This document shows positions 2,961-24,250 of a stretch of DNA of 24,325 nt, one piece after another. How positions within the stretch are numbered: position 1 is the first letter of the stretch; each line of letters opens with the position of its first letter. The notes under the pieces are model-generated. The model saw nothing but the letters and a program-made list of their open reading frames with translations. It was not told the origin of the DNA and made no database searches. This stretch comes from a virus, in the IMG/VR virus record IMGVR_UViG_3300017917_001749, positions 1 through 24,325 of that record. One strand, given 5' to 3'. The position numbers and the translations under genes were made by a program.

Positions 2961-3719
2961 ATGACAGACAAAAAACTTGAAGAACAATCGGCAAAATTAA
3001 AAGAGTTGCTAGAAGATGTACGTCCAACAGAAAAGAACTTGGCACAAGTATTAAGAGAACAAATGCGTTCTAATGGTAAAAGATTCTGGGCAGGAGACAA
3101 TATCAGTGATTATGTATCAGAAAAGCAAAAACAGCAACTGATCGACGAAGCAACTGTGGCATTTGAGAATGTGTTAGACACATTGTTAATTGACCGAGAA
3201 AATGATCCAAACTCAAAGGGCACAGCTCGACGTTTGGCCAAAATGTATTACAACGAAATCATGGCAGGTCGTTATGAACCAGCACCTGATGCAACTGCTT
3301 TTCCAAATGACAGTGAGGACAGATATGAAGGCATGCTTGTGGTTAGAAGTGAACTTCGCAGTATGTGTAGCCATCATCACCAACCAGTATCTGGTGTTGC
3401 TTACATTGGTATTATTGCCGCTGGCAAACTTATTGGTCTTAGCAAGTACACTCGTATTGCTCAGTGGTGTGCTCGTCGCGGTACACTACAAGAAGAACTT
3501 TGTAACGATATCGCTAGAGAGATCATGAAAGCCACGGATTCAACCAACGTGGGTGTTTATATTCAAGCCACGCATGGTTGCTGTGAGAACCGAGGTATTA
3601 TGGCGCATTCAAGTCTGACACAAACAACTGTACTCAAAGGCGTGTTTGCTACAGACCCAAGTGTTAAAAAAGAATTTATGGATAATATCAAGCTACAACA
3701 AGAGTTTGCTCCAAGATAA
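2961..3719 (+). CDS. folE: GTP cyclohydrolase I
   Basis: A 252-residue FolE, which converts GTP to 7,8-dihydroneopterin triphosphate, the first step of both folate and 7-deazaguanine (queuosine/preQ0) synthesis. The catalytic core is clear: MCSHHHQPVSG (135-145) holds zinc ligands C136 and H139, GLSKYTRIAQWCARR (159-173) is the signature helix, and HGCCENRG (205-212) supplies the third zinc ligand C207. The family's C-E-H-H is C-S-H-H here, so the glutamate is replaced. An N-terminal extension of about 60 residues precedes the core. It has its own promoter and Shine-Dalgarno. Together with the QueD-like and QueE genes in this window it points to a phage 7-deazaguanine pathway, probably for DNA modification. 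Confidence 0.93.
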   Translation: MTDKKLEEQSAKLKELLEDVRPTEKNLAQVLREQMRSNGKRFWAGDNISDYVSEKQKQQLIDEATVAFENVLDTLLIDRENDPNSKGTARRLAKMYYNEIMAGRYEPAPDATAFPNDSEDRYEGMLVVRSELRSMCSHHHQPVSGVAYIGIIAAGKLIGLSKYTRIAQWCARRGTLQEELCNDIAREIMKATDSTNVGVYIQATHGCCENRGIMAHSSLTQTTVLKGVFATDPSVKKEFMDNIKLQQEFAPR

Positions 3720-6659: not shown

Positions 6660-7157
6660 ATGCAACCTGTTCAATACAAATATACCAGCACAAAAGAATA
6701 CCACGATGCTTTTCCTTGTGCTTATCGTCAATGGCGTGCCGACAGCCATTGTAACTTAATTCATGGCTATTCATTTAGCATGAAGTTTTACTTTGGTACC
6801 AATGACTTAGACGTTCGTAACTGGGCTGCTGATTACGGCGGGTTAAAAGAACTTAAGAATGTTCTTGAATCACAATTTGATCATACTTTACTTGTATCCG
6901 AAGATGATCCAGAACTTGAATTATACAAAGAAATGGAACGTCGCAATATTGCTAAACTTACTATCTTACCTAAGCTGGGTTGCGAAGGACTAGCCGATCA
7001 ACTTTACAAGTATGTAAATGGTGTATACATTCCAGACATGTGGGGACAGGCAGAAGCAGAACGGTTGTGGTGCTATCGTGTTGAAGTACGTGAAACACAA
7101 TCAAACATGGCATTCCGTGAAGGACATCGAGAGTGGAACGAGGATTTGTTTGAGTAA
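6660..7157 (+). CDS. queD: 6-carboxytetrahydropterin synthase-like protein (QueD/PTPS family)
   Basis: A 165-residue member of the PTPS/QueD family, which turns dihydroneopterin triphosphate into 6-carboxy-tetrahydropterin, the second step toward preQ0. C31 and H35 in SHCNLIHGYSFSM (29-41) align with the catalytic cysteine and a zinc histidine of the canonical C-x3-H-G-H. FDHTLLV matches the D-H pair, GCEGLADQLYKYV the helix, and VEVRETQ the substrate-binding glutamate. Two usual zinc histidines look replaced by tyrosine: Y22 (AYR for AHR) and Y37 (HGY for HGH). The variant may be a known phage type. It has its own promoter with AGGAG. It is grouped with folE and queE by function. Confidence 0.82.
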   Translation: MQPVQYKYTSTKEYHDAFPCAYRQWRADSHCNLIHGYSFSMKFYFGTNDLDVRNWAADYGGLKELKNVLESQFDHTLLVSEDDPELELYKEMERRNIAKLTILPKLGCEGLADQLYKYVNGVYIPDMWGQAEAERLWCYRVEVRETQSNMAFREGHREWNEDLFE

Positions 7158-10550: not shown

Positions 10551-11069
10551 ATGAAAAAACTATTTTTAACTTGGCAAGATGTTGAACATCAAGTTCAAGA
10601 AATTTTACGGCAATTACAACAGGATAGTTGGCGCCCTGATTACATAGTAGGACTTACCCGTGGAGGACTAGTACCAGCTAACTTGATTAGTCAATACTTA
10701 GAATGCCCAATGGAAACTTTAAAAGTAAGTTTACGCGATACTAATCAAGCACCAGAATCAAATCTTTGGATGGCCGAAGATGCGTTTGGTAGCAACGAGA
10801 ACAGCGGCAAAAATATTCTCATTGTAGATGATATCAATGACACCGGTGCTACATTAAATTATATCAAACAAGATTGGCAATCGAGTTGTTTACCCAACGA
10901 CGAAAGATGGATTAATGACGTTTGGAACAATAATGTTCGGGTAGCAGTGTTATATGATAATGAATCAAGCAAATCAGAATTGACAGTTGATTATTCAGCT
11001 GTTACAATAAACAAAGCAGAAGAAGATTGTTGGGTAGTATTTCCTTGGGAAGATTGGTGGACTAGATAA
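10551..11069 (+). CDS. Type I phosphoribosyltransferase
   Basis: A 172-residue PRTase-fold protein; such enzymes join a base to PRPP. The PRPP loop is clear: NILIVDDINDTGATL (88-102), with the paired aspartates and D-T-G-A-T. YIVGLTRGGLVPANLISQYL (31-50) is the usual first strand and hood-side helix of hypoxanthine/xanthine-guanine PRTases. The base-binding hood is not diagnostic, so the base (hypoxanthine, guanine, xanthine or a 7-deaza analogue) is unknown. A promoter places the transcript start at or next to the ATG, so translation is probably leaderless. The stop overlaps the queE ATG by one base, tying it to deazaguanine and NAD genes downstream. Confidence 0.8.
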   Translation: MKKLFLTWQDVEHQVQEILRQLQQDSWRPDYIVGLTRGGLVPANLISQYLECPMETLKVSLRDTNQAPESNLWMAEDAFGSNENSGKNILIVDDINDTGATLNYIKQDWQSSCLPNDERWINDVWNNNVRVAVLYDNESSKSELTVDYSAVTINKAEEDCWVVFPWEDWWTR

Positions 11070-11938
11070 TGGCAAAAATTAAAGTATCAGAAGTATTTTA
11101 CAGTTTACAAGGCGAAGGTCGCTTTGTGGGCGTTCCTAGTGTATTCTTGCGCACCTACGGTTGTAACTTTACCTGCGCAGGGTTTGGTTGCAAGCCTGGT
11201 GAAAAATCTACAGGTGCAGATGAAGTTGCCAAGACTGTGGAGTTGTACAAAACATTCAACGACTTGCCTTTGGTAGAAACAGGATGTGACAGTTATGCAT
11301 CATGGCACCCGGCCTACAAGCATCTAAGTCCTACACAGACCACAGAAGAACTGGTAGAGCGTATGTTGGCACTCACACCCAACAACATGTGGATGCAAAA
11401 CAATGGCAATGATGTACACTTGGTTATCACTGGTGGCGAGCCACTGTTGGGCTGGCAACGTGCTTATGCAGAGTTGTTGAGTCATCCAAGAATGGCAGAC
11501 TTGCGTAACATTACATTTGAGACCAATGGTACTCAAGAATTGCACGCAGACTTCAAGAAATATCTAAATGAATGGTTCATGCAAGATCCAGAGCATCGTC
11601 AGATTACATTTTCTGTCAGTGCCAAACTAAGTGCATCAGGTGAGCTATGGGAAGATGCTATCAAGCCAGCGGTGGTCATGGACTATCAGCATAATGGACA
11701 TACTACATATCTCAAATTTGTGGTAGAAACTGACGAACATATTCAGGATGCTATCCGCGCCACAGATGAATATCGCCGTGCTGGATTCACAGGTGTAATT
11801 TATCTTATGCCACAAGGTGGTGTAGTTACTCCATATGAAGCTAACAAAGTTCGTATCGCTGACATATGTGCTGAACGTGGGTGGTATTACAGTCCACGTT
11901 TGCATGTAGACTTGTGGGGCAACGGTTGGGGCAAATAA
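11069..11938 (+). CDS. queE: 7-carboxy-7-deazaguanine synthase (radical SAM)
   Basis: A 289-residue QueE-type radical SAM enzyme, which turns 6-carboxy-tetrahydropterin into 7-carboxy-7-deazaguanine. The N-terminus VSEVFYSLQGEGRFVGVPSV (6-25) is typical, as is HLVITGGEPLLGW (117-129). The cluster motif is odd: C32-x3-C36 is followed by an extra segment of about 36 residues before G-C73-D-S-Y-A-S-W, which matches the usual W-C-D-T-x-Y that directly follows in other QueE. C41 (GFGCKPG) is an alternative third ligand. Length is above the usual 210-250. It overlaps the PRTase and nadE genes by one base each. The product is the precursor of preQ0. Confidence 0.88.
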   Translation: MAKIKVSEVFYSLQGEGRFVGVPSVFLRTYGCNFTCAGFGCKPGEKSTGADEVAKTVELYKTFNDLPLVETGCDSYASWHPAYKHLSPTQTTEELVERMLALTPNNMWMQNNGNDVHLVITGGEPLLGWQRAYAELLSHPRMADLRNITFETNGTQELHADFKKYLNEWFMQDPEHRQITFSVSAKLSASGELWEDAIKPAVVMDYQHNGHTTYLKFVVETDEHIQDAIRATDEYRRAGFTGVIYLMPQGGVVTPYEANKVRIADICAERGWYYSPRLHVDLWGNGWGK

Positions 11939-17276: not shown

Positions 17277-18461
17277 ATGAAACTATTAGAACAAAATGAC
17301 CAACTTGGATTTTATCAAGTTGGTCAAGAAAAAATACACATTAAACCCAAAGCACTTGTACGGGCAACTGAAACTAATCAATTTCCCGAGTGGAACTTTA
17401 ATCGAGAAGTGTTTGATAAATTTCCTTGGCACATCGAGCCAGAAACTGCTCTTAAAGAATTATATCGGTTACGAGCTCAACAACTTAGAGAAAAATATGA
17501 CTATATCAGACTAGAAGTCAGTGGAGGCGGAGACAGTTCCACCGTTGCCTATAGTTTTATTCTTAATGGTATACACCTCGATGAGGTAGTTTTTCGATAT
17601 CCTAAAACTGGTGAAAAAAATGTCTCCGACGACCCATTTAACACCAAGCCAGAAAATACATTAAGTGAATTTAAATACGCGGCTCAACCTTTACTACAAT
17701 GGATTTCAACAAATAGCCCTAATACAAAAATAACCATACACGATTATTCTAAAGACATGTTGGAATCAAGTCACGACGAGGGCTGGGTACTTCGATCCAA
17801 AGATTACTTTCAACCCGGGCATGTGTTTAAACACACAGTAGATTCTGTCGACAGCCACAAGGAAACACTGGATCGTGGGCAACGTGTCTGTATGTTATGG
17901 GGCATTGACAAACCCAAAGTCTGCATCAAAGATAAAAAATGGTATTTGTATTTTATGGATGTTCAAGCCAGTGCAGCAAATCCTGATTTAGGATCTTACA
18001 CCAACATAACCAATGAATATTTTTACTGGACTCCTGAGTTACCAGAGTTATTGTGTAAACAAGCACACATAATTAGAAAATGGTTTGACTTGCCCGACAA
18101 TAGGTATCTACAACATTTGGCTAGATGGCCCAACTATAGTTTTTCGCAGAGAACAACATTTGAGCATATAATCAAACCTTTGATCTATCCTGATTATGAC
18201 CCATCAACATTTCAAACATCTAAACCAACCAACAGTTTTTACAATGAGATGGATCAATGGTTTTATCAAAACTTTCAAGACACACGAGCTTATAAAGTAT
18301 GGAAAGCTGGTTTGCAATATCTAATAGACAATATTGACCCAAAGTATTTCAACAACGAAATGGGACGACCTGTTGGATTTGTAGGATTCATTAGTCCATT
18401 TTATTATCTCGGAGAAGCTAGTTTCATAGATTCAGGAATCAATACACACTTCAAATTCTGA
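17277..18461 (+). CDS. PP-loop ATPase (N-type ATP pyrophosphatase) of unknown substrate
   Basis: A 394-residue protein with the PP-loop YIRLEVSGGGDSSTVAYSFI (77-96), S82-G-G-G-D-S-S, the ATP pyrophosphatase signature shared by NadE, QueC, asparagine synthetase and thiouridine enzymes. The next strand (DEVVFRYP, about 102-109) fits the fold. The remaining 280 residues have no recognised domain, and I see no C-terminal zinc-cysteine cluster of the kind typical of QueC. It could adenylate a carboxyl or amide group; replacing QueC in the deazaguanine route is a hypothesis. No Shine-Dalgarno is visible. The late-type promoter of the next gene overlaps its stop codon. Confidence 0.7.
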   Translation: MKLLEQNDQLGFYQVGQEKIHIKPKALVRATETNQFPEWNFNREVFDKFPWHIEPETALKELYRLRAQQLREKYDYIRLEVSGGGDSSTVAYSFILNGIHLDEVVFRYPKTGEKNVSDDPFNTKPENTLSEFKYAAQPLLQWISTNSPNTKITIHDYSKDMLESSHDEGWVLRSKDYFQPGHVFKHTVDSVDSHKETLDRGQRVCMLWGIDKPKVCIKDKKWYLYFMDVQASAANPDLGSYTNITNEYFYWTPELPELLCKQAHIIRKWFDLPDNRYLQHLARWPNYSFSQRTTFEHIIKPLIYPDYDPSTFQTSKPTNSFYNEMDQWFYQNFQDTRAYKVWKAGLQYLIDNIDPKYFNNEMGRPVGFVGFISPFYYLGEASFIDSGINTHFKF

Positions 18462-18469
18462 TATAAATA
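18462..18469 (+). promoter_or_regulatory. T4-like late promoter TATAAATA
   Basis: A perfect TATAAATA octamer follows directly on the stop of the PP-loop gene and sits 12 bases before the structured leader of the TctC-like gene. In T4-like phages this sequence alone directs late transcription through a phage sigma factor. Confidence 0.65.
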
Positions 18470-18480
18470 AACTTAGCAAC

Positions 18481-18585
18481 GCCGGGTTCTTCCGACGTCG
18501 GATTTCAACTTGACGCTTGACATAATGATGTCTTTATTGTATTGTTAATACACAACGCCAACCGTAAGTAGACGACTCTACCAGC
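18481..18585 (+). ncRNA. Structured leader RNA, copy A (upstream of the tctC-like gene)
   Basis: In order: GCCGGGT (18481), GACG (18494), GACGCTTG (18512-18519), hairpin GACAT-AATG-ATGTC (18519-18532), TTTA, hairpin GTATT-GTT-AATAC (18539-18551), AACGCC-N3-CGTA (18554-18566), a short GTAG/CTAC stem, and CCAGC (18581). The same order recurs before the dctP-like gene with different hairpin bases but the same pairing, so selection on RNA structure is likely. A 10-bp palindrome CCGACGTCGG (18492-18501) lies in it. It could be a riboswitch or protein-binding leader. A TTGACA-17-TATTGT pair at 18517-18545 overlaps the hairpins and may be coincidental. Confidence 0.6.
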
Positions 18586-18618
18586 AACACATTTTATAAA
18601 TTTCTAAAAGGAATACCA

Positions 18619-19533
18619 ATGAAAAAAATACTAGCAATATTGTTACTGTCTACCTTTGCAATTTCAGCACAGGCAAAAGAAGTAGTACCAGTTGTATACT
18701 CATGGTCTGCTGGAGATCCAGCTGCAAATTTTGATAGAGCTATTATTTCTGTAGCCAATGCCAGTCAGGACAAGTATACATTTATATTTGAAGCAAAACC
18801 CGGTGGTGGTGGAGTTGTTCCGGCTCAATACACTTTGTCAACACCCAATGCAATACTTGCCACTAGTTCTGCATTTTTTATTCGTCCGGTGATCTATCCA
18901 AATGAAAGTTACGATTTATCACAATTTCGTGGACTTGCCCCAAAATGCACAGTTACCTCGATTATTACATCAGCAAAATACAAAACATGGAAAGATGTTC
19001 CAAAAGATCAACCATTGACCATTGGTGTCAGCGGGCTGGGAACAACCACTCATGTGATTGCTTTGCAAATTGCAGCACGCTACCCAAATATGACAGTTGT
19101 GCCTTTCAAGGGTACCAGCGAAGCACTAATAAATGTTTTAAATGGTAGCATTGATTTTGCTGTAAACTTCTTTGGTGATATTGAATCTTGGAAAAAAGAC
19201 AACTTTACAGGTAAGACAATTTATACACTAGGAGTAACAGGAGATAAATCATTTGAAGGAATTCCTACACTAGCATCTCAAGGATTTAACCAAGATTTAG
19301 CAAAAATGAGTCCTCCACATCAATATGTCACTAGCACAAAAATGCCAGATGAAAAATTTCGAGAGATTCGAGACATTATTCAAAAAGCCGAACAATCTGT
19401 CAGAGTCAAAGATGCATTTTTCATTGATCGCTGTGAGCCTGCTAAACCACTGAGTGAGCAAGAAGTACAACAGTGGTATGTGGAACAAACAGCGATTTGG
19501 CGTAAATTAAGCTCGGGTATTAAAATTAAATAA
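18619..19533 (+). CDS. TctC/Bug-type periplasmic solute-binding protein
   Basis: A 304-residue extracytoplasmic receptor of the tripartite tricarboxylate transporter (TctC/Bug) family. It has a classic signal peptide (MKKILAILLLSTFAISAQA, cleavage after residue 19). The mature part shows the expected FEAKPGGGGVVPAQYTLSTP loop, IGVSGLGTTTHVIALQI and VVPFKGTSEALINVLNGSID, matching the family's P-G-x-G-G, G-x-G-S/T-x-x-H and P-Y/F-K-G-x-x-x-A-L pattern. Length is near the usual 320. No membrane subunits (TctA/TctB) are present, so it would have to use host ones or do something else. It is preceded by a late-type promoter, the structured leader and AAAGGA (18606-18611). Confidence 0.85.
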   Translation: MKKILAILLLSTFAISAQAKEVVPVVYSWSAGDPAANFDRAIISVANASQDKYTFIFEAKPGGGGVVPAQYTLSTPNAILATSSAFFIRPVIYPNESYDLSQFRGLAPKCTVTSIITSAKYKTWKDVPKDQPLTIGVSGLGTTTHVIALQIAARYPNMTVVPFKGTSEALINVLNGSIDFAVNFFGDIESWKKDNFTGKTIYTLGVTGDKSFEGIPTLASQGFNQDLAKMSPPHQYVTSTKMPDEKFREIRDIIQKAEQSVRVKDAFFIDRCEPAKPLSEQEVQQWYVEQTAIWRKLSSGIKIK

Positions 19534-19569
19534 AAATTGGATTTATTTGCTTAACGGTTAATCAACAAG

Positions 19570-19577
19570 CATAAATA
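19570..19577 (+). promoter_or_regulatory. T4-like late promoter CATAAATA
   Basis: A CATAAATA octamer in the gap after the TctC-like gene, 17 bases before copy B of the structured leader. It is placed as in copy A. No good -35 element is seen. Confidence 0.55.
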
Positions 19578-19594
19578 ATAATACAGTAGGCAGC

Positions 19595-19690
19595 GCCAGG
19601 TCAACTGACGCCGAAAACATTAGACGCTTGGAGAAACTCCTTTACTAACAATGGTTGTTAGAACGCCGTTCGTAGCAAGTATTTGCCAGC
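19595..19690 (+). ncRNA. Structured leader RNA, copy B (upstream of the dctP-like gene)
   Basis: Same element order as copy A: GCCAGGT (19595), GACG (19607), GACGCTTG (19623-19630), hairpin GGAG-AAA-CTCC (19630-19640), TTTA, hairpin TAACAA-TGG-TTGTTA (19646-19660), AACGCC-N3-CGTA (19662-19674) and CCAGC (19686-19690). The hairpin bases differ from copy A while pairing and flanks are kept. It ends about 30 bases before the ATG, leaving AAAGGA (19707-19712) free as Shine-Dalgarno. Confidence 0.6.
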
Positions 19691-19719
19691 CGATACTAAA
19701 TATTTTAAAGGAAAAAAAT

Positions 19720-20673
19720 ATGTCAAAAGTTACTAAAATTCGTTGGGTAATTGCCCATGAACCAATTGCTCTTTTTTATAGAGCAGCCAAAGATTTCGAA
19801 GCTAGTATTAATGAGCAACAATCAGCTGAAAAGATTGAAATTGAAATCATGACTCCAGCTGAATACAGTCAGCGTTACAACAATGGTGTTGTTGTAACTA
19901 AACACGATTTGCTAGATCTAATGGATCAAGGCAAGATTGAAATGAGTCAAATGTACACAACATGGTTAGCAGAAACTTATGCTCCTGATTTGTTGGCATT
20001 TGAAATGCCATTTATTTTCCGCGATCATGATCATGCTACTCGTGTATTAGAAGGTCAAGTTGGCGAATCTTTGTTGGATACTATCAAACAAAACAGTAAA
20101 CTACGCGGTCTAAGCTACACTTATTCAGGTGGTTTCCGCATGGCATCAGTGAACAAAAAAGTTAGTACACTAAAAGAACTTACTGGATTAACTATGCGTA
20201 GTAACCGTAATCCAGTGGCTCAAGCAATTTGGAAAAACATGGACACAGTTCCATTTGTTTGCGAAATTGAAGACGCTAAGTCAAAGTTTGAAGAACAAGC
20301 CATTGATGCTGCTGACCTAGTGTACAGTCGTGTCTACCCATTGGGTCTTGATGCTCATACACAGACTGTGGTTGATAGCAAGCACACATTATTTTTAACT
20401 ACGATGTTAATCAGTGACACTTTCTGGAATCAACTCAGTGACGAGGTTCGTGCTATTATCAAGACAGCTGCAATTGAAGCAGGACGTAAAGAACGTGCTG
20501 AGACAATTCGTGATGGTGAAGAAGCCAAACAAAAACTTATCTCAGAGGGCGTTAACATTGTTGAACCCACTGCTGAAGAAATGGCCGACTTCCGTGCTCG
20601 TATGGAAGTAGTGTATAATCAGTTTACTGATACGTTTGCTCCAGGATTAATTGAACAGATCAAAAAATCCTAA
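19720..20673 (+). CDS. TRAP-transporter DctP-like solute-binding protein without signal peptide
   Basis: A 317-residue DctP-family protein. From the first residues (VTKIRWVIAHEP) it reads like the mature domain of TRAP receptors. The family pattern then follows: MSQMYTTWLAETYAPDLLAF with FEMPFIFRDHDHA, GLSYTYSGGFRMASVNKKVS, LKELTGLTMRSNRNPVAQAI, and TTMLISDTFWNQLSDEVRAI. No signal peptide precedes it. The ATG at 19720 has AAAGGA at a good distance; an in-frame ATG at 19651 would add 23 residues, not a convincing signal and lying within the leader RNA. A cytoplasmic or unconventional role is therefore possible. No DctQ/DctM genes follow; a strong terminator ends the unit. Confidence 0.85.
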   Translation: MSKVTKIRWVIAHEPIALFYRAAKDFEASINEQQSAEKIEIEIMTPAEYSQRYNNGVVVTKHDLLDLMDQGKIEMSQMYTTWLAETYAPDLLAFEMPFIFRDHDHATRVLEGQVGESLLDTIKQNSKLRGLSYTYSGGFRMASVNKKVSTLKELTGLTMRSNRNPVAQAIWKNMDTVPFVCEIEDAKSKFEEQAIDAADLVYSRVYPLGLDAHTQTVVDSKHTLFLTTMLISDTFWNQLSDEVRAIIKTAAIEAGRKERAETIRDGEEAKQKLISEGVNIVEPTAEEMADFRARMEVVYNQFTDTFAPGLIEQIKKS

Positions 20674-20860: not shown

Positions 20861-20912
20861 TCAGTATCAAGATTTTTATATTTTGTATCAAAATAAGCCA
20901 GTGAGCACACAT

Positions 20913-21677
20913 ATGTCAAGAAAAATTTTATCAGGAAGTTATTATTTAGAAGTCCTCGACAATGAAGTACCAGAAGAACTTCAAACGAAAGTTTATAATT
21001 TTTTACTCGATAGAGAATATTGTGTAAATTTTTATGATCAACCATATTCTAACTATTATCCCCGAACAAACACTTTAGTAACCCCTAGAAATAAACCAGC
21101 TGGCATACGTTGCCCGCTAGCATGGGATGAGGAAAGTTTAGAACATCGTGCAAACACTGTTTATCATCTATGGAAACATATCAATAATTTATTGAATAAC
21201 CAATACAGCATCGAAGGTGTTCCTGAATCAATGAACTACATGGTAGGTATTAGTCCCTTGCAAGGGATAACCAAAAGCAACGGTGAGCCAGGAGCACCAA
21301 ACAGTGGGTGGCGTGTGTATGGTGATGGATTAGACAAAGAATATCTTGCTAGAAGTAAAGCAGTTCATAGAGATAATCCTTTTATGGACGACGACAGTGC
21401 GTATACCATGGTCTATTTTGCGAATGCTGAGTGGCACCCACAATTGTATGGTGAAACACTGTTTCACAGTGATGATGCGTATAGTGGTGATTTTACTGGA
21501 AAGTTTGAACAGGATCAACCCAGAAACTTTCCGATTGGCGATGTAGAAAATACTGTAGCTCCTCGCCCGGGCAGAATTATGATTTGGGAATCTAGATACT
21601 TGCATCAAATTAAACCAGTTGCTTGTTATGCAACAGAACCTTTGTTGGCCATTAGTTTTAGACTAAAAAAGATTTAA
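20913..21677 (+). CDS. 2-oxoglutarate/Fe(II)-dependent oxygenase
   Basis: A 254-residue double-stranded beta-helix oxygenase. Iron ligands are H152 and D154 (AVHRDNPF) and H231 (RYLHQIKPV), with R250 (ISFRLKK) to bind 2-oxoglutarate. The strand VAPRPGRIMIWESRYLHQ is typical. It hydroxylates an unidentified target. I start at the ATG at 20913; in-frame TTG (20883) and GTG (20901) are upstream, and no start has a strong Shine-Dalgarno. The N-terminal 100 residues (LEVLDNEVPEELQTKVYNFL onward) resemble phage members. The 52-base gap after the small membrane ORF suggests shared transcription from the promoter at 20733. Confidence 0.8.
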   Translation: MSRKILSGSYYLEVLDNEVPEELQTKVYNFLLDREYCVNFYDQPYSNYYPRTNTLVTPRNKPAGIRCPLAWDEESLEHRANTVYHLWKHINNLLNNQYSIEGVPESMNYMVGISPLQGITKSNGEPGAPNSGWRVYGDGLDKEYLARSKAVHRDNPFMDDDSAYTMVYFANAEWHPQLYGETLFHSDDAYSGDFTGKFEQDQPRNFPIGDVENTVAPRPGRIMIWESRYLHQIKPVACYATEPLLAISFRLKKI

Positions 21678-21998: not shown

Positions 21999-22208
21999 AT
22001 GTGTAATTGTTTGATTTTTGCTTTGTGGATGCGATTTAGATGGGGCGGTAGTATTCGTTGGCATCGTAGTCGTACCTGGTTAGGTTTTCATAACACCTGG
22101 GTAAGTCCAAATGGCAAAGTGTTAGAATATACTTTGGTTCGTCCAAAGCGTCAACCGTGGTGGTATGTTCCAATATGCTATCGTGGTGTGATAAAAGAAT
22201 TGTTGTAA
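21999..22208 (+). CDS. Small tryptophan/arginine-rich protein, function unknown
   Basis: A 69-residue protein with AGGAG just upstream. Tryptophan and arginine alternate strongly (WMRFRWGGSIRWHRSRTWLG and PKRQPWWYVPICYR), so it is basic and aromatic, with no clear transmembrane segment. The pattern would suit a nucleic-acid- or lipid-contacting peptide, but the family is not recognised. The stop is 2 bases before the tmRNA acceptor-piece hairpin, so read-through transcription into the tmRNA is likely. Confidence 0.65.
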   Translation: MCNCLIFALWMRFRWGGSIRWHRSRTWLGFHNTWVSPNGKVLEYTLVRPKRQPWWYVPICYRGVIKELL

Positions 22209-22209
22209 T

Positions 22210-22568
22210 CCCTTCAAAACGAAGGCATGTTGGACGTGGGTTCGATTCCCACCTCCTCCACCAAAGCATATTATAAAACTCGGTAGTGCGACGCTTGGCC
22301 ATTCCGGAAACTGGCTTGAAAAGTGAAATAACATAGTATGCTTTATTGGGGGAGACCTGGTTTCGACAGCGTGAGATAGTAGAGACGGCAACACGAGAGT
22401 CGACTGACGTAATCAGCGAAAATAAATGTAAATGCAAAAGCAAATACAGGTGAAGTAACTGTTTCAGGCAAGGGCGTTAAGTTCTCTGCTCGTACAGCGA
22501 AAGCCGCATTGGCAGTTTAAACACTGACTAGGGTTTGGCCAGCTTTCCTCGTAACAGAATAAGCTGGC
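22210..22568 (+). ncRNA. ssrA: Circularly permuted (two-piece) tmRNA
   Basis: The tmRNA acceptor half precedes the coding half. Acceptor piece (about 22210-22263): hairpin CCTTC/GAAGG, P2 strand CATGTTG (22226-22232), T arm GTGGG-TTCGATT-CCCAC (22236-22252), CTCCTCC, A, CCA. Intervening segment 22264-22347 is closed by AAGCATA/TATGCTT. Coding piece from 22348: GGGGGAG pairs with CTCCTCC with a G-U at position 3 (alanine identity), then the conserved GGTTTCGAC and CAGCGTG (22367-22373), completing P2. The tag frame runs from about GCA 22440 to TAA 22518-22520 (26 residues, ANTGEV to AKAALAV). A final stem GCCAGCTT/AAGCTGGC (22538-22568) ends the structure. The exact resume codon and 3' end are inferred. 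Confidence 0.9.
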
Positions 22569-22601
22569 ATAAATAATTTTGATATTTTGGACAACCTGGG
22601 G

Positions 22602-22630
22602 TTGACAAGATATAAATAAACACATACAAT
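22602..22630 (+). promoter_or_regulatory. Sigma-70 promoter with an embedded late octamer
   Basis: TTGACA (22602-22607), a 17-base spacer and TACAAT (22625-22630). The spacer contains a full TATAAATA (22611-22618). Start expected near 22637. It drives the structured RNA below and perhaps the tRNA array. Confidence 0.85.
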
Positions 22631-23231: not shown

Positions 23232-23309
23232 GCAACGGTGGCAGAGTGGCCCAATGCAAGGGACTGCAAATCCCTAAAACCGCTGGTTCAAATCCAGCCC
23301 GTTGCTCCA
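23232..23309 (+). tRNA. tRNA-Cys (GCA)
   Basis: GCAACGG pairs with CCGTTGC; discriminator T, CCA encoded. Anticodon loop CTGCAAA on an AGGGA/TCCCT stem. First of the tRNA array. Confidence 0.93.
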
Positions 23310-23313
23310 TCTT

Positions 23314-23397
23314 GGGTTGGAAGAATCAATGGTGATTCAGTGGACTGTAAATCCGCCGCCTCTGGCACGACTGGTTCGATCCCAGTACAACCCACCA
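23314..23397 (+). tRNA. tRNA-Tyr (GTA)
   Basis: Class II tRNA of 84 bases: loop CTGTAAA on GTGGA/TCCGC, long variable region, T arm ACTGG/CCAGT, CCA encoded. The acceptor GGGTTGG/ACAACCC has a G-A mismatch at the seventh pair. Confidence 0.88.
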
Positions 23398-23403
23398 AAC
23401 AAT

Positions 23404-23493
23404 GGAAGTGTGGCAGAGTCCGGTTTATTGCAACAGTCTTGAAAACTGTCGAGTAGAAATGCTCCGTGAGTTCGAATCTCACCGCTTCCGCCA
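23404..23493 (+). tRNA. tRNA-Ser (TGA)
   Basis: Acceptor GGAAGTG/CGCTTCC, discriminator G, CCA encoded; loop CTTGAAA on ACAGT/ACTGT; long variable arm with GAG/CTC, typical of serine. Confidence 0.93.
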
Positions 23494-23498
23494 AACAT

Positions 23499-23586
23499 GG
23501 AAAGTTGGCCGAGTGGTTAAGGCAATGGATTGCTAATCCATCACTTATTAATAGGTGCATAGGTTCGAATCCTATACTTTCCGCCA
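23499..23586 (+). tRNA. tRNA-Ser (GCT)
   Basis: Acceptor GGAAAGT/ACTTTCC, discriminator G, CCA encoded; loop TTGCTAA on ATGGA/TCCAT; long variable arm. Confidence 0.93.
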
Positions 23587-23588
23587 AT

Positions 23589-23663
23589 GCAGGATTAATT
23601 CAGTGGTAGAATGTCTCGTTGCCAACGAGAATGTCATCGGTTCGAACCCGATATCCTGCTCCA
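23589..23663 (+). tRNA. tRNA-Gly (GCC)
   Basis: Acceptor GCAGGAT/ATCCTGC, discriminator T, CCA encoded; loop TTGCCAA on TCTCG/CGAGA. Confidence 0.93.
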
Positions 23664-23669
23664 AATATT

Positions 23670-23752
23670 GCCCCGATGGCGAAACTGGTAGACGCGGTGG
23701 TCTTAGAAGCCACTACTTCGGTGTGAGAGTTCGAGTCTCTCTTGGGGCACCA
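23670..23752 (+). tRNA. tRNA-Leu (TAG)
   Basis: Acceptor GCCCCGA/TTGGGGC, discriminator A, CCA encoded; loop CTTAGAA on GTGGT/GCCAC; extended variable arm. Confidence 0.92.
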
Positions 23753-23757
23753 GAATT

Positions 23758-23842
23758 GCGACTGTGGTGAAATAGGTAGACACAAGAGACTTAAAATCTC
23801 TCGCTGAGAGGCGTGCCAGTTCGATTCTGGCCGGTCGCACCA
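23758..23842 (+). tRNA. tRNA-Leu (TAA)
   Basis: Acceptor GCGACTG/CGGTCGC, discriminator A, CCA encoded; loop CTTAAAA on AGAGA/TCTCT; extended variable arm. Confidence 0.93.
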
Positions 23843-23852
23843 AACAATTTCA

Positions 23853-23926
23853 GGGCTGTTAGTTAAATGGGATAACATTGGCTTTGCAAGCCAGGGTTGA
23901 GAGTTCGATTCTCTCACGGTCCACCA
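23853..23926 (+). tRNA. tRNA-Ala (TGC)
   Basis: Acceptor GGGCTGT/ACGGTCC, with the G3-U70 identity pair; loop TTTGCAA; CCA encoded. Confidence 0.93.
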
Positions 23927-23934
23927 TAATAATT

Positions 23935-24012
23935 CGGAGTGTAGGCTAGCCCGGTTAAGTCGCCTGGTTTGGGACCAGGAAACCGCAAGTTCGAATCTTG
24001 CCACTCCGACCA
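23935..24012 (+). tRNA. tRNA-Pro (TGG)
   Basis: Acceptor CGGAGTG/CACTCCG, discriminator A, CCA encoded; loop TTTGGGA on CCTGG/CCAGG. Confidence 0.94.
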
Positions 24013-24017
24013 CACAT

Positions 24018-24091
24018 GCTCTTTTAGTTAAATGGTATAACAACGGTTTTGTAGTCCGTGATTAGAGGTTCGATTCCTTTAGAGAGCACCA
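24018..24091 (+). tRNA. tRNA-Thr (TGT)
   Basis: Acceptor GCTCTTT/AGAGAGC, discriminator A, CCA encoded; loop TTTGTAG. The last anticodon-stem pair is a T-T mismatch. Confidence 0.88.
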
Positions 24092-24099
24092 TAAACAAT

Positions 24100-24175
24100 T
24101 CCAACTTCGTATTCTTGGTGAGTACCCCCGGCTGTTAACCGGATGAGCTAGGTTCGAATCCTAGAGTTGGAGCCA
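24100..24175 (+). tRNA. tRNA-Asn (GTT)
   Basis: Acceptor TCCAACT/AGTTGGA, discriminator G, CCA encoded; loop CTGTTAA. The outermost anticodon-stem pair is C-A. Confidence 0.9.
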
Positions 24176-24176
24176 T

Positions 24177-24250
24177 GCTCTCGTAGTATAAAGGCATTAC
24201 ACTACATTGGTAATGTAGAAACACAGGATCGTTACCTGTCGAGAGCACCA
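24177..24250 (+). tRNA. tRNA-Thr (GGT)
   Basis: Acceptor GCTCTCG/CGAGAGC, discriminator A, CCA encoded; loop TTGGTAA on CTACA/TGTAG. The T loop reads ATCGTTA instead of the usual TTCGANT. Confidence 0.88.

Follow-up and report, generated by a model that had tools for sequence, protein, structure and literature searches.

Few classes of leader RNA are known on the borrowed metabolic genes of phages (manA, wcaG and glnA), mostly from marine phages. The manA RNA (RF01745) is a structured leader in T4-like phages that lies ahead of varied metabolic genes (PMC2864571). None of the five cyanophage genomes searched here has more than one match to it, and in P-SSM2 it starts a few nucleotides after a promoter. 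The wcaG RNA (RF01761), a phage leader with likewise at most one match per genome in these five cyanophages, precedes a nucleotide-sugar epimerase gene in S-SM2. The two RNAs are mutually exclusive and single-copy in P-SSM2, S-SSM7, S-SSM4, S-SM2 and Syn9 (loci L316-L320). The glutamine riboswitch (glnA) of Melnitz and related marine phages is a further regulatory leader in T4-like phages of streamlined aquatic bacteria (PMC9004378), and glnA RNAs can be tandem (PMC2864571). In T4 itself, the genes e, soc, I-TevI and segB have a promoter within a structured RNA element, so that their early transcripts are structured differently from their late ones (PMC2988022); in these genes the late promoter lies inside, and the early transcript has an inhibitory hairpin at the ribosome-binding site. 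T4 late promoters are 8-bp TATA boxes that lie roughly one turn upstream of the start (PMC2988020).

Here we describe a leader RNA that occurs twice in a 24,325-base virus fragment from IMG/VR (the window, meaning the whole stretch of DNA that was analysed). Like the cyanophage manA and wcaG RNAs, it is a phage leader with a single copy per genome and varied metabolic genes downstream, and these two RNAs are its closest analogues but not its homologs. The manA RNA differs from it in sequence and fold, is found in cyanophages and not in what we infer to be betaproteobacterial phages, and in P-SSM2 follows a sigma70-type promoter and not a TAAATA box. The wcaG RNA shares neither its fold nor its sequence, and no late promoter was found within 80 nt upstream of the two wcaG copies read. 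The RF01745 and RF01761 covariance models have no match in the leaders and, conversely, our own model (R1, see below) gave only chance scores on the true manA and wcaG loci. The leaders also lack an Rfam glnA match and have other conserved sequence. The sequence-only reading of the window had matched this layout to no named riboswitch and proposed a comparison with Rfam; in line with this, no Rfam 15 family matches the leaders of the window at E values up to 10, nor those of the other scanned loci. We found no paper on this leader RNA in the literature searched, and the family is set apart here from Rfam families only.

The leader family and its fold

The features of the window on which the analysis is based are the following, with paired strands separated by a slash.

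18462-18469 (+): T4-type late promoter of copy 1 (TATAAATA), read from the sequence
18476-18585 (+): leader RNA copy 1 (R1 score 104.4 bits; covariation; pairs placed from the alignment)
18476-77/18584-85 (+): P1 of copy 1
18479-85/18492-98 (+): P2 of copy 1, containing the mismatch C18482.A18495
18499-501/18562-64 (+): P3 of copy 1 (CGG/CCG)
18512-15/18556-59 (+): module stem of copy 1, containing the mismatch A18513.C18558
18519-23/18528-32, 18538-42/18548-52 and 18568-72/18577-81 (+): P4, P5 and P6 of copy 1
18517-18522 (+): TTGACA, -35 element of the putative sigma70-type promoter embedded in P4 of copy 1, read from the sequence
18540-18545 (+): TATTGT, -10 element of the embedded promoter, in P5 of copy 1 (17-nt spacer)
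near 18552 (+): predicted start of the embedded promoter of copy 1
18608-18612 (+): Shine-Dalgarno site AAGGA of the TctC-like gene, read from the sequence
18619-19533 (+): TctC-like solute receptor with an apparent signal peptide by eye (Pfam TctC, E 6.1e-9)
19572-19577 (+): TAAATA late-promoter box of copy 2, 12 nt before P1
19590-19690 (+): leader RNA copy 2 (R1 score 74.2 bits)
19590-91/19689-90 and 19593-99/19605-11 (+): P1 and P2 of copy 2, the latter with C19596.A19608
19612-15/19669-72 (+): P3 of copy 2 (CGAA/UUCG)
19623-26/19664-67 (+): module stem of copy 2, containing A19624.C19666
19630-33/19637-40, 19645-50/19656-61 and 19675-78/19683-86 (+): P4, P5 and P6 of copy 2
19720-20673 (+): DctP-like protein with no apparent signal peptide by eye (Pfam DctP, E 2.8e-44)

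The sequence-only reading had described two leaders with one shared order of elements, and these elements are found in that order in both. It had located them correctly, and P1 makes them slightly longer, at 18476-18585 and 19590-19690. Its two hairpins differ between the copies and pair in each, as it had said (GACAT/ATGTC versus GGAG/CTCC; GTATT/AATAC versus TAACAA/TTGTTA); four more helices had been missed (P1, P2 with RCGCC/GACGY, P3 and P6), as had the sigma70-type promoter sequence inside P4/P5 of copy 1.

The pattern GACGCTTG-N-TTTA-N-ACGCC-N3-CGTA has exactly two matches in the window and none in 100 shuffles of it. A single exact pattern derived from the window copies matched 56 viral contigs, and all but one of these (L034) share the extended architecture on alignment. 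Alignment of 43 distinct copies yielded the covariance model R1, which recovered copies that the exact pattern had missed. A relaxed pattern gave 58 further viral loci with an R1 match, and a third scan, which used the promoter and P2 only and left the module unconstrained, added several dozen more. After merging and de-duplication the family comprises at least 158 distinct complete copies, all in viral contigs, so that the search for relatives proposed from the two copies did find the leader again after late promoters elsewhere. All copies are from uncultivated viruses. Among GTDB bacterial genomes, the relaxed pattern picked up 118 loci, none of which was confirmed by R1; no match was obtained in 300 genomes from the order to which a Pseudoduganella genome belongs, with the stricter filters that apply to large genome sets; and a collection of cultured phages contained no real blastn match to the leader.

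Folding of single copies is unremarkable for either window leader (z about -0.3 to -0.4), and the evidence for the fold is therefore comparative. In an alignment of 100 copies, which was fitted to the model, standard pairs fill 95.8% of the pair cells, and an earlier, unfitted MAFFT alignment has 91.7% standard pairs with 18 of the 30 pairs changed on both sides. In the 100-copy alignment 21 of the 30 pairs are changed on both sides, which amounts to 518 cells; shuffles give 147, and sliding the partners gives no more than 62. Relatedness among the copies inflates such cell counts, and counts at the level of pairs and helices are safer. The proposal that the RNA structure is under selection is thus borne out. 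RNAalifold recovers P2 to P5 unaided, and the nested long-range helices P1 and P3 covary, P1 being only 2-4 bp long. G.U cells outnumber A.C cells in pairs by 72 to 23 (15 to 0 at pair 6-34), which indicates an RNA on this strand and not DNA palindromes. Single-sequence thermodynamics disfavour the consensus fold, whose enforcement costs about 10 kcal/mol in a calculation that ignores tertiary contacts and A.C pairs. That the leader is a real structured RNA is, in our view, practically certain.

The consensus reads GCA-RCGCC-P2-GACGYCGG-linker-GACGC(U/C)UG-P4-YUUUAC-P5-AACGCC-NN-CCGUR-P6-nAGC. Its core consists of four helices (P1, P2, P3 and P6), with a module mounted on P3; a tRNA-like four-way junction was considered and dropped, as the linker lengths do not fit. 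The A-C mismatch of P2 is invariant (C.A in 43 of 43 copies). The module stem is closed by G-C, A.C, C-G and N-N', where the A.C mismatch is again kept; by inspection, type I has G-C at N-N', types II and III have C-G, and L487 has A-U. The mismatch duplex hence occurs twice per RNA, in P2 and in the module stem, and three times where modules are tandem. Type I modules are present in 141 of the 158 classified copies (tandem in two), type II modules in 13 and type III modules in 4. Doubled modules are found in L005, L015, L090 and L047. The type II modules (GACC..CUUAAAUGCGUG..GGCC) and the type III modules, which bear a GNRA tetraloop by inspection, sit on the same core (L482, L500, L505, L529 and L544; L484, L489, L538 and L551) and are possibly different sensor domains. 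Eroded leaders that have lost P3 and/or P6 precede DctP-like genes in L327, L328 and L330.

Predicted promoters before and inside the leader

A TAAATA-type box precedes both window copies and ends 4-12 nt before P1 in all 96 copies in which the distance was measured, at 5 or 6 nt in 86 of these, copy 2 of the window, at 12 nt, being the one outlier; the late promoter recognized in the sequence-only reading is thus general and nearly fixed in its distance. With the geometry of T4 late promoters, P1 would start at about +1 or +2. The leader-bearing viruses are T4-like phages, with the T4-type capsid protein Gp23 in seven of seven tested records of at least 197 kb, and such a phage with a TATAAATA-type box roughly one turn upstream of the start has the arrangement of a T4-type late transcription unit. 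From the end of P1 to the start codon there are mostly 22-33 nt, which contain the Shine-Dalgarno site; this linker is A/T-rich (77%) and leaves the site free.

A conserved aptamer-like fold in a 5' leader is what a riboswitch has, but no expression platform was found in the form of a terminator or of a sequestered ribosome-binding site. Neither window copy has a terminator. Shine-Dalgarno accessibility is the same as in shuffled leaders (0.40 versus 0.41), and enforcing the consensus fold raises it from 0.39 to 0.54. Sequestration of the ribosome-binding site was rejected, given this likeness to shuffled leaders and a consensus-enforced shift too weak for a switch. Shine-Dalgarno pairing as in shuffled leaders also sets the leader apart from the promoter-in-hairpin control of the T4 genes: in contrast to these, it is the late transcript that has the structure, with the sigma70 promoter inside and the ribosome-binding site not sequestered.

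The promoter scan found TTGACA-17-TATTGT within leader 1 of the window and no sigma70 promoter in leader 2. Near-consensus sigma70 sequences in this fixed register recur in the family: (T/C)TGACA lies in P4 of 55 of the 99 module-bearing copies, and in most of these P5 has a hexamer resembling a -10 element at a distance of 17 or 18 nt. Fifty of the 55 match 10-12 of 12 promoter positions, compared with 4-9 in the other copies. All 55 embedded-type copies have a P4 loop of exactly 4 nt, which measures 0-6 nt in the others, and the loops of P2, P5 and P6 and the linker do vary in length among the embedded-type copies. P5 and P6 still covary in this subtype (52 and 68 double-change cells). P4 has no double-change cell here as against 44 elsewhere, a comparison that is partly circular, as ACA in P4 defines the subtype; our case is built instead on the invariant length of the P4 loop, on the correctly spaced -10 element and on sites that outnumber those in shuffles. 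The remaining 44 copies keep the fold without an embedded promoter.

Between -120 and the start codon, a sigma70 site matching at least 10 of 12 positions is present in 95 of the 158 copies, compared with 9.8 in shuffles. The predicted sigma70 start lies inside or after the leader in 80 of 158 copies: in 47 it is inside, with the promoter in the module hairpins P4/P5; in 21 the -35 element is in P6/P1 and the -10 element follows; and in 12 the promoter is found past P1 but before the gene. A further 15 copies have the site upstream, and 63 have none. Among 45 other late promoters of the same contigs, whose leaders are shorter, one has a sigma70 site. The trait follows the gene, as most TctC genes have such a site and 27 of 28 DctP-like genes have none; the latter are predicted to be expressed late only. 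Judged by their TTGACA and TATAAT elements with a 16-18 nt spacer, the sigma70 promoters are probably real and active as a bypass: with a start inside or after the leader, early messages would usually skip it and late ones carry it.

Copy number, downstream genes and phage host

Exactly one copy is present in 46 of the 48 virus records with a leader, including records of 340, 332, 329 and 320 kb; a core-only pattern agrees on this copy number, and a reversed control pattern has no match. R1 under-detects copies of types II and III. In the window and in L008, two neighboring genes are each preceded by a separate copy. The receptor genes seen downstream in the window, TctC-like and DctP-like, are as the sequence-only reading described them, but the leader is not specific to receptors. 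It precedes genes for TctC receptors (43), DctP-like proteins (28), TauD-type proteins (16) and other 2OG-like oxygenases (11), PP-loop proteins (9), other receptor-like proteins (about 12), porins or outer-membrane proteins (8), radical-SAM proteins (6), DUF2061 proteins (6), desaturases (5), transferases (4) and permeases (TctA, MFS and SSS-like; about 6), and a few singletons. About 70 of the 158 copies lie before receptors, porins or transporters, not counting the 28 DctP-like proteins, whose periplasmic role is doubtful. These start with MSK..KIRWV and have no signal peptide by eye, unlike true TRAP receptors, and may not be periplasmic receptors.

The leader is present at 28 of 80 viral DctP-like and 16 of 79 TauD-like relatives. 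Strict coupling of gene and leader is ruled out, since most of these relatives lack it. The 52 of 80 DctP-like relatives without a leader mostly have a plain late promoter, as far as they were read, and expression of relatives from plain late promoters makes the leader an added control that is not required for expression. By eye, a DUF2061-like gene and a plain TAAATA promoter often precede leaderless phage DctP-like genes (L352-L364 and others).

Several neighbors in the window belong to the same gene types. At 17277-18461, directly 5' of leader 1, lies the gene of a PP-loop protein (SGGxDS) that neither Pfam nor PHROG matches; homologs of this protein sit behind the leader in nine other copies. 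Just past the DctP-like gene, 20883-21677 has a weak 2OG-Fe(II) oxygenase match, and such oxygenases are also frequent behind the leader. FolE-, QueD- and QueE-like genes of the deazaguanine pathway at 2961-3719, 6660-7157 and 11069-11938 suggest DNA or tRNA base modification. A permuted (two-piece) beta-type tmRNA gene at 22151-22611 is followed by an array of 11 tRNAs (23232-24250), and L005 and L021 also have permuted tmRNAs of this kind close to their leaders. Together with Porin_4-type porins, the permuted beta-type tmRNA points to a betaproteobacterial host.

Possible modes of action

We hypothesize that a T4-type late promoter starts transcription at P1 or 1 nt before it, so that every late message would open with the fold. 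This is a junction of four helices, with an exchangeable and in some copies doubled module on P3, and it ends just 5' of a free Shine-Dalgarno site. In many genes, early transcripts would bypass the leader by means of the sigma70 promoter, making early expression unconditional and late expression dependent on passage through the leader. The junction and the module would bind a small molecule that reports the nutritional state of the host, and binding would alter ribosome access to, or decay of, the late message. The leader very probably acts in cis on late messages. A small-molecule ligand is rather less assured than an even chance would make it; tandem modules and exchangeable module types are aptamer-like traits, but no one ligand obviously suits so wide a range of downstream genes. 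The explanation as a whole, a riboswitch-like, cis-acting 5'-terminal leader of late cargo messages with a sigma70 bypass, is held tentatively, at just short of even probability. It takes both promoters to be active, the RNA to regulate its own message and a ligand to exist, all of which we infer.

The same 5'-terminal position would also suit an element of stability or translation without a ligand, in which P1 shields the 5' end against RppH/RNase E or a standby site stays open because the fold is compact. The start of P1 at +1 or +2, the A/T-rich linker (77%) with its free Shine-Dalgarno site and no platform, and the very different genes downstream are all as such an element would have them, but a P1 of just 2-4 bp is not; a generic stabilizer would moreover be expected on many late genes and not once per genome, and a cap would need neither invariant junction bases nor conserved A.C mismatches nor exchangeable modules. 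That the leader is confined to cargo genes and occurs once per genome, with a conserved junction and modules that are exchanged or doubled, thus favors a sensing leader over a generic stabilizer, though only modestly, and we rate the stabilizer as rather unlikely. A protein of phage or host might instead recognize the GACG/CGCC stem with its A.C mismatch and repress or activate the late message, which would account for the recurrence of one mismatch duplex two or three times per RNA and has precedent in several autogenous leaders of T4 (PMC3014915). As no candidate protein has been identified, and autogenous control by the product is excluded because the downstream genes share no fold, we consider this improbable.

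Two further explanations detach the leader from the message that it precedes. A phage noncoding RNA that acts in trans, is transcribed from a late promoter of its own and has the cargo gene only as a neighbor would agree with the single copy per genome and with the 80 copies in which the downstream gene has a putative sigma70 promoter of its own past or inside the leader. Such an RNA is very improbable given the mostly 22-33 nt between P1 and the start codon with no terminator between them in the window, the sigma70 site absent from 63 copies, and the adjacent genes in the window and in L008 that each own a copy. Promoter hexamers inside P4/P5 in 55 copies could also be read as part of a regulatory region acting at the DNA level, made up of promoters and palindromic operators and not of RNA. 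To this reading we assign almost no weight, as G.U far exceeds A.C, the nested long-range helices P1 and P3 covary, P5 and P6 covary in the promoter-bearing subtype too, and the fold is kept without the promoter in 44 copies.

Returning to the sensing leader, its strongest form would be a new class of phage riboswitch with a four-helix core, interchangeable ligand modules and hairpins co-opted as DNA promoters, which at present is speculative and on balance doubtful. If it were true, the same nucleotides would encode an early bypass promoter and a late sensor, and nutrient-acquisition genes would be 'always on early, conditional late'. The leader is at least as complex as the manA, wcaG and glnA RNAs and would mark cargo genes that a phage regulates separately, which makes the control of host nutrition by a phage directly testable. 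Where a covarying RNA fold and a sigma70 promoter overlap, the same sequence is under constraint as DNA and as RNA, a situation that is rare and can be checked.
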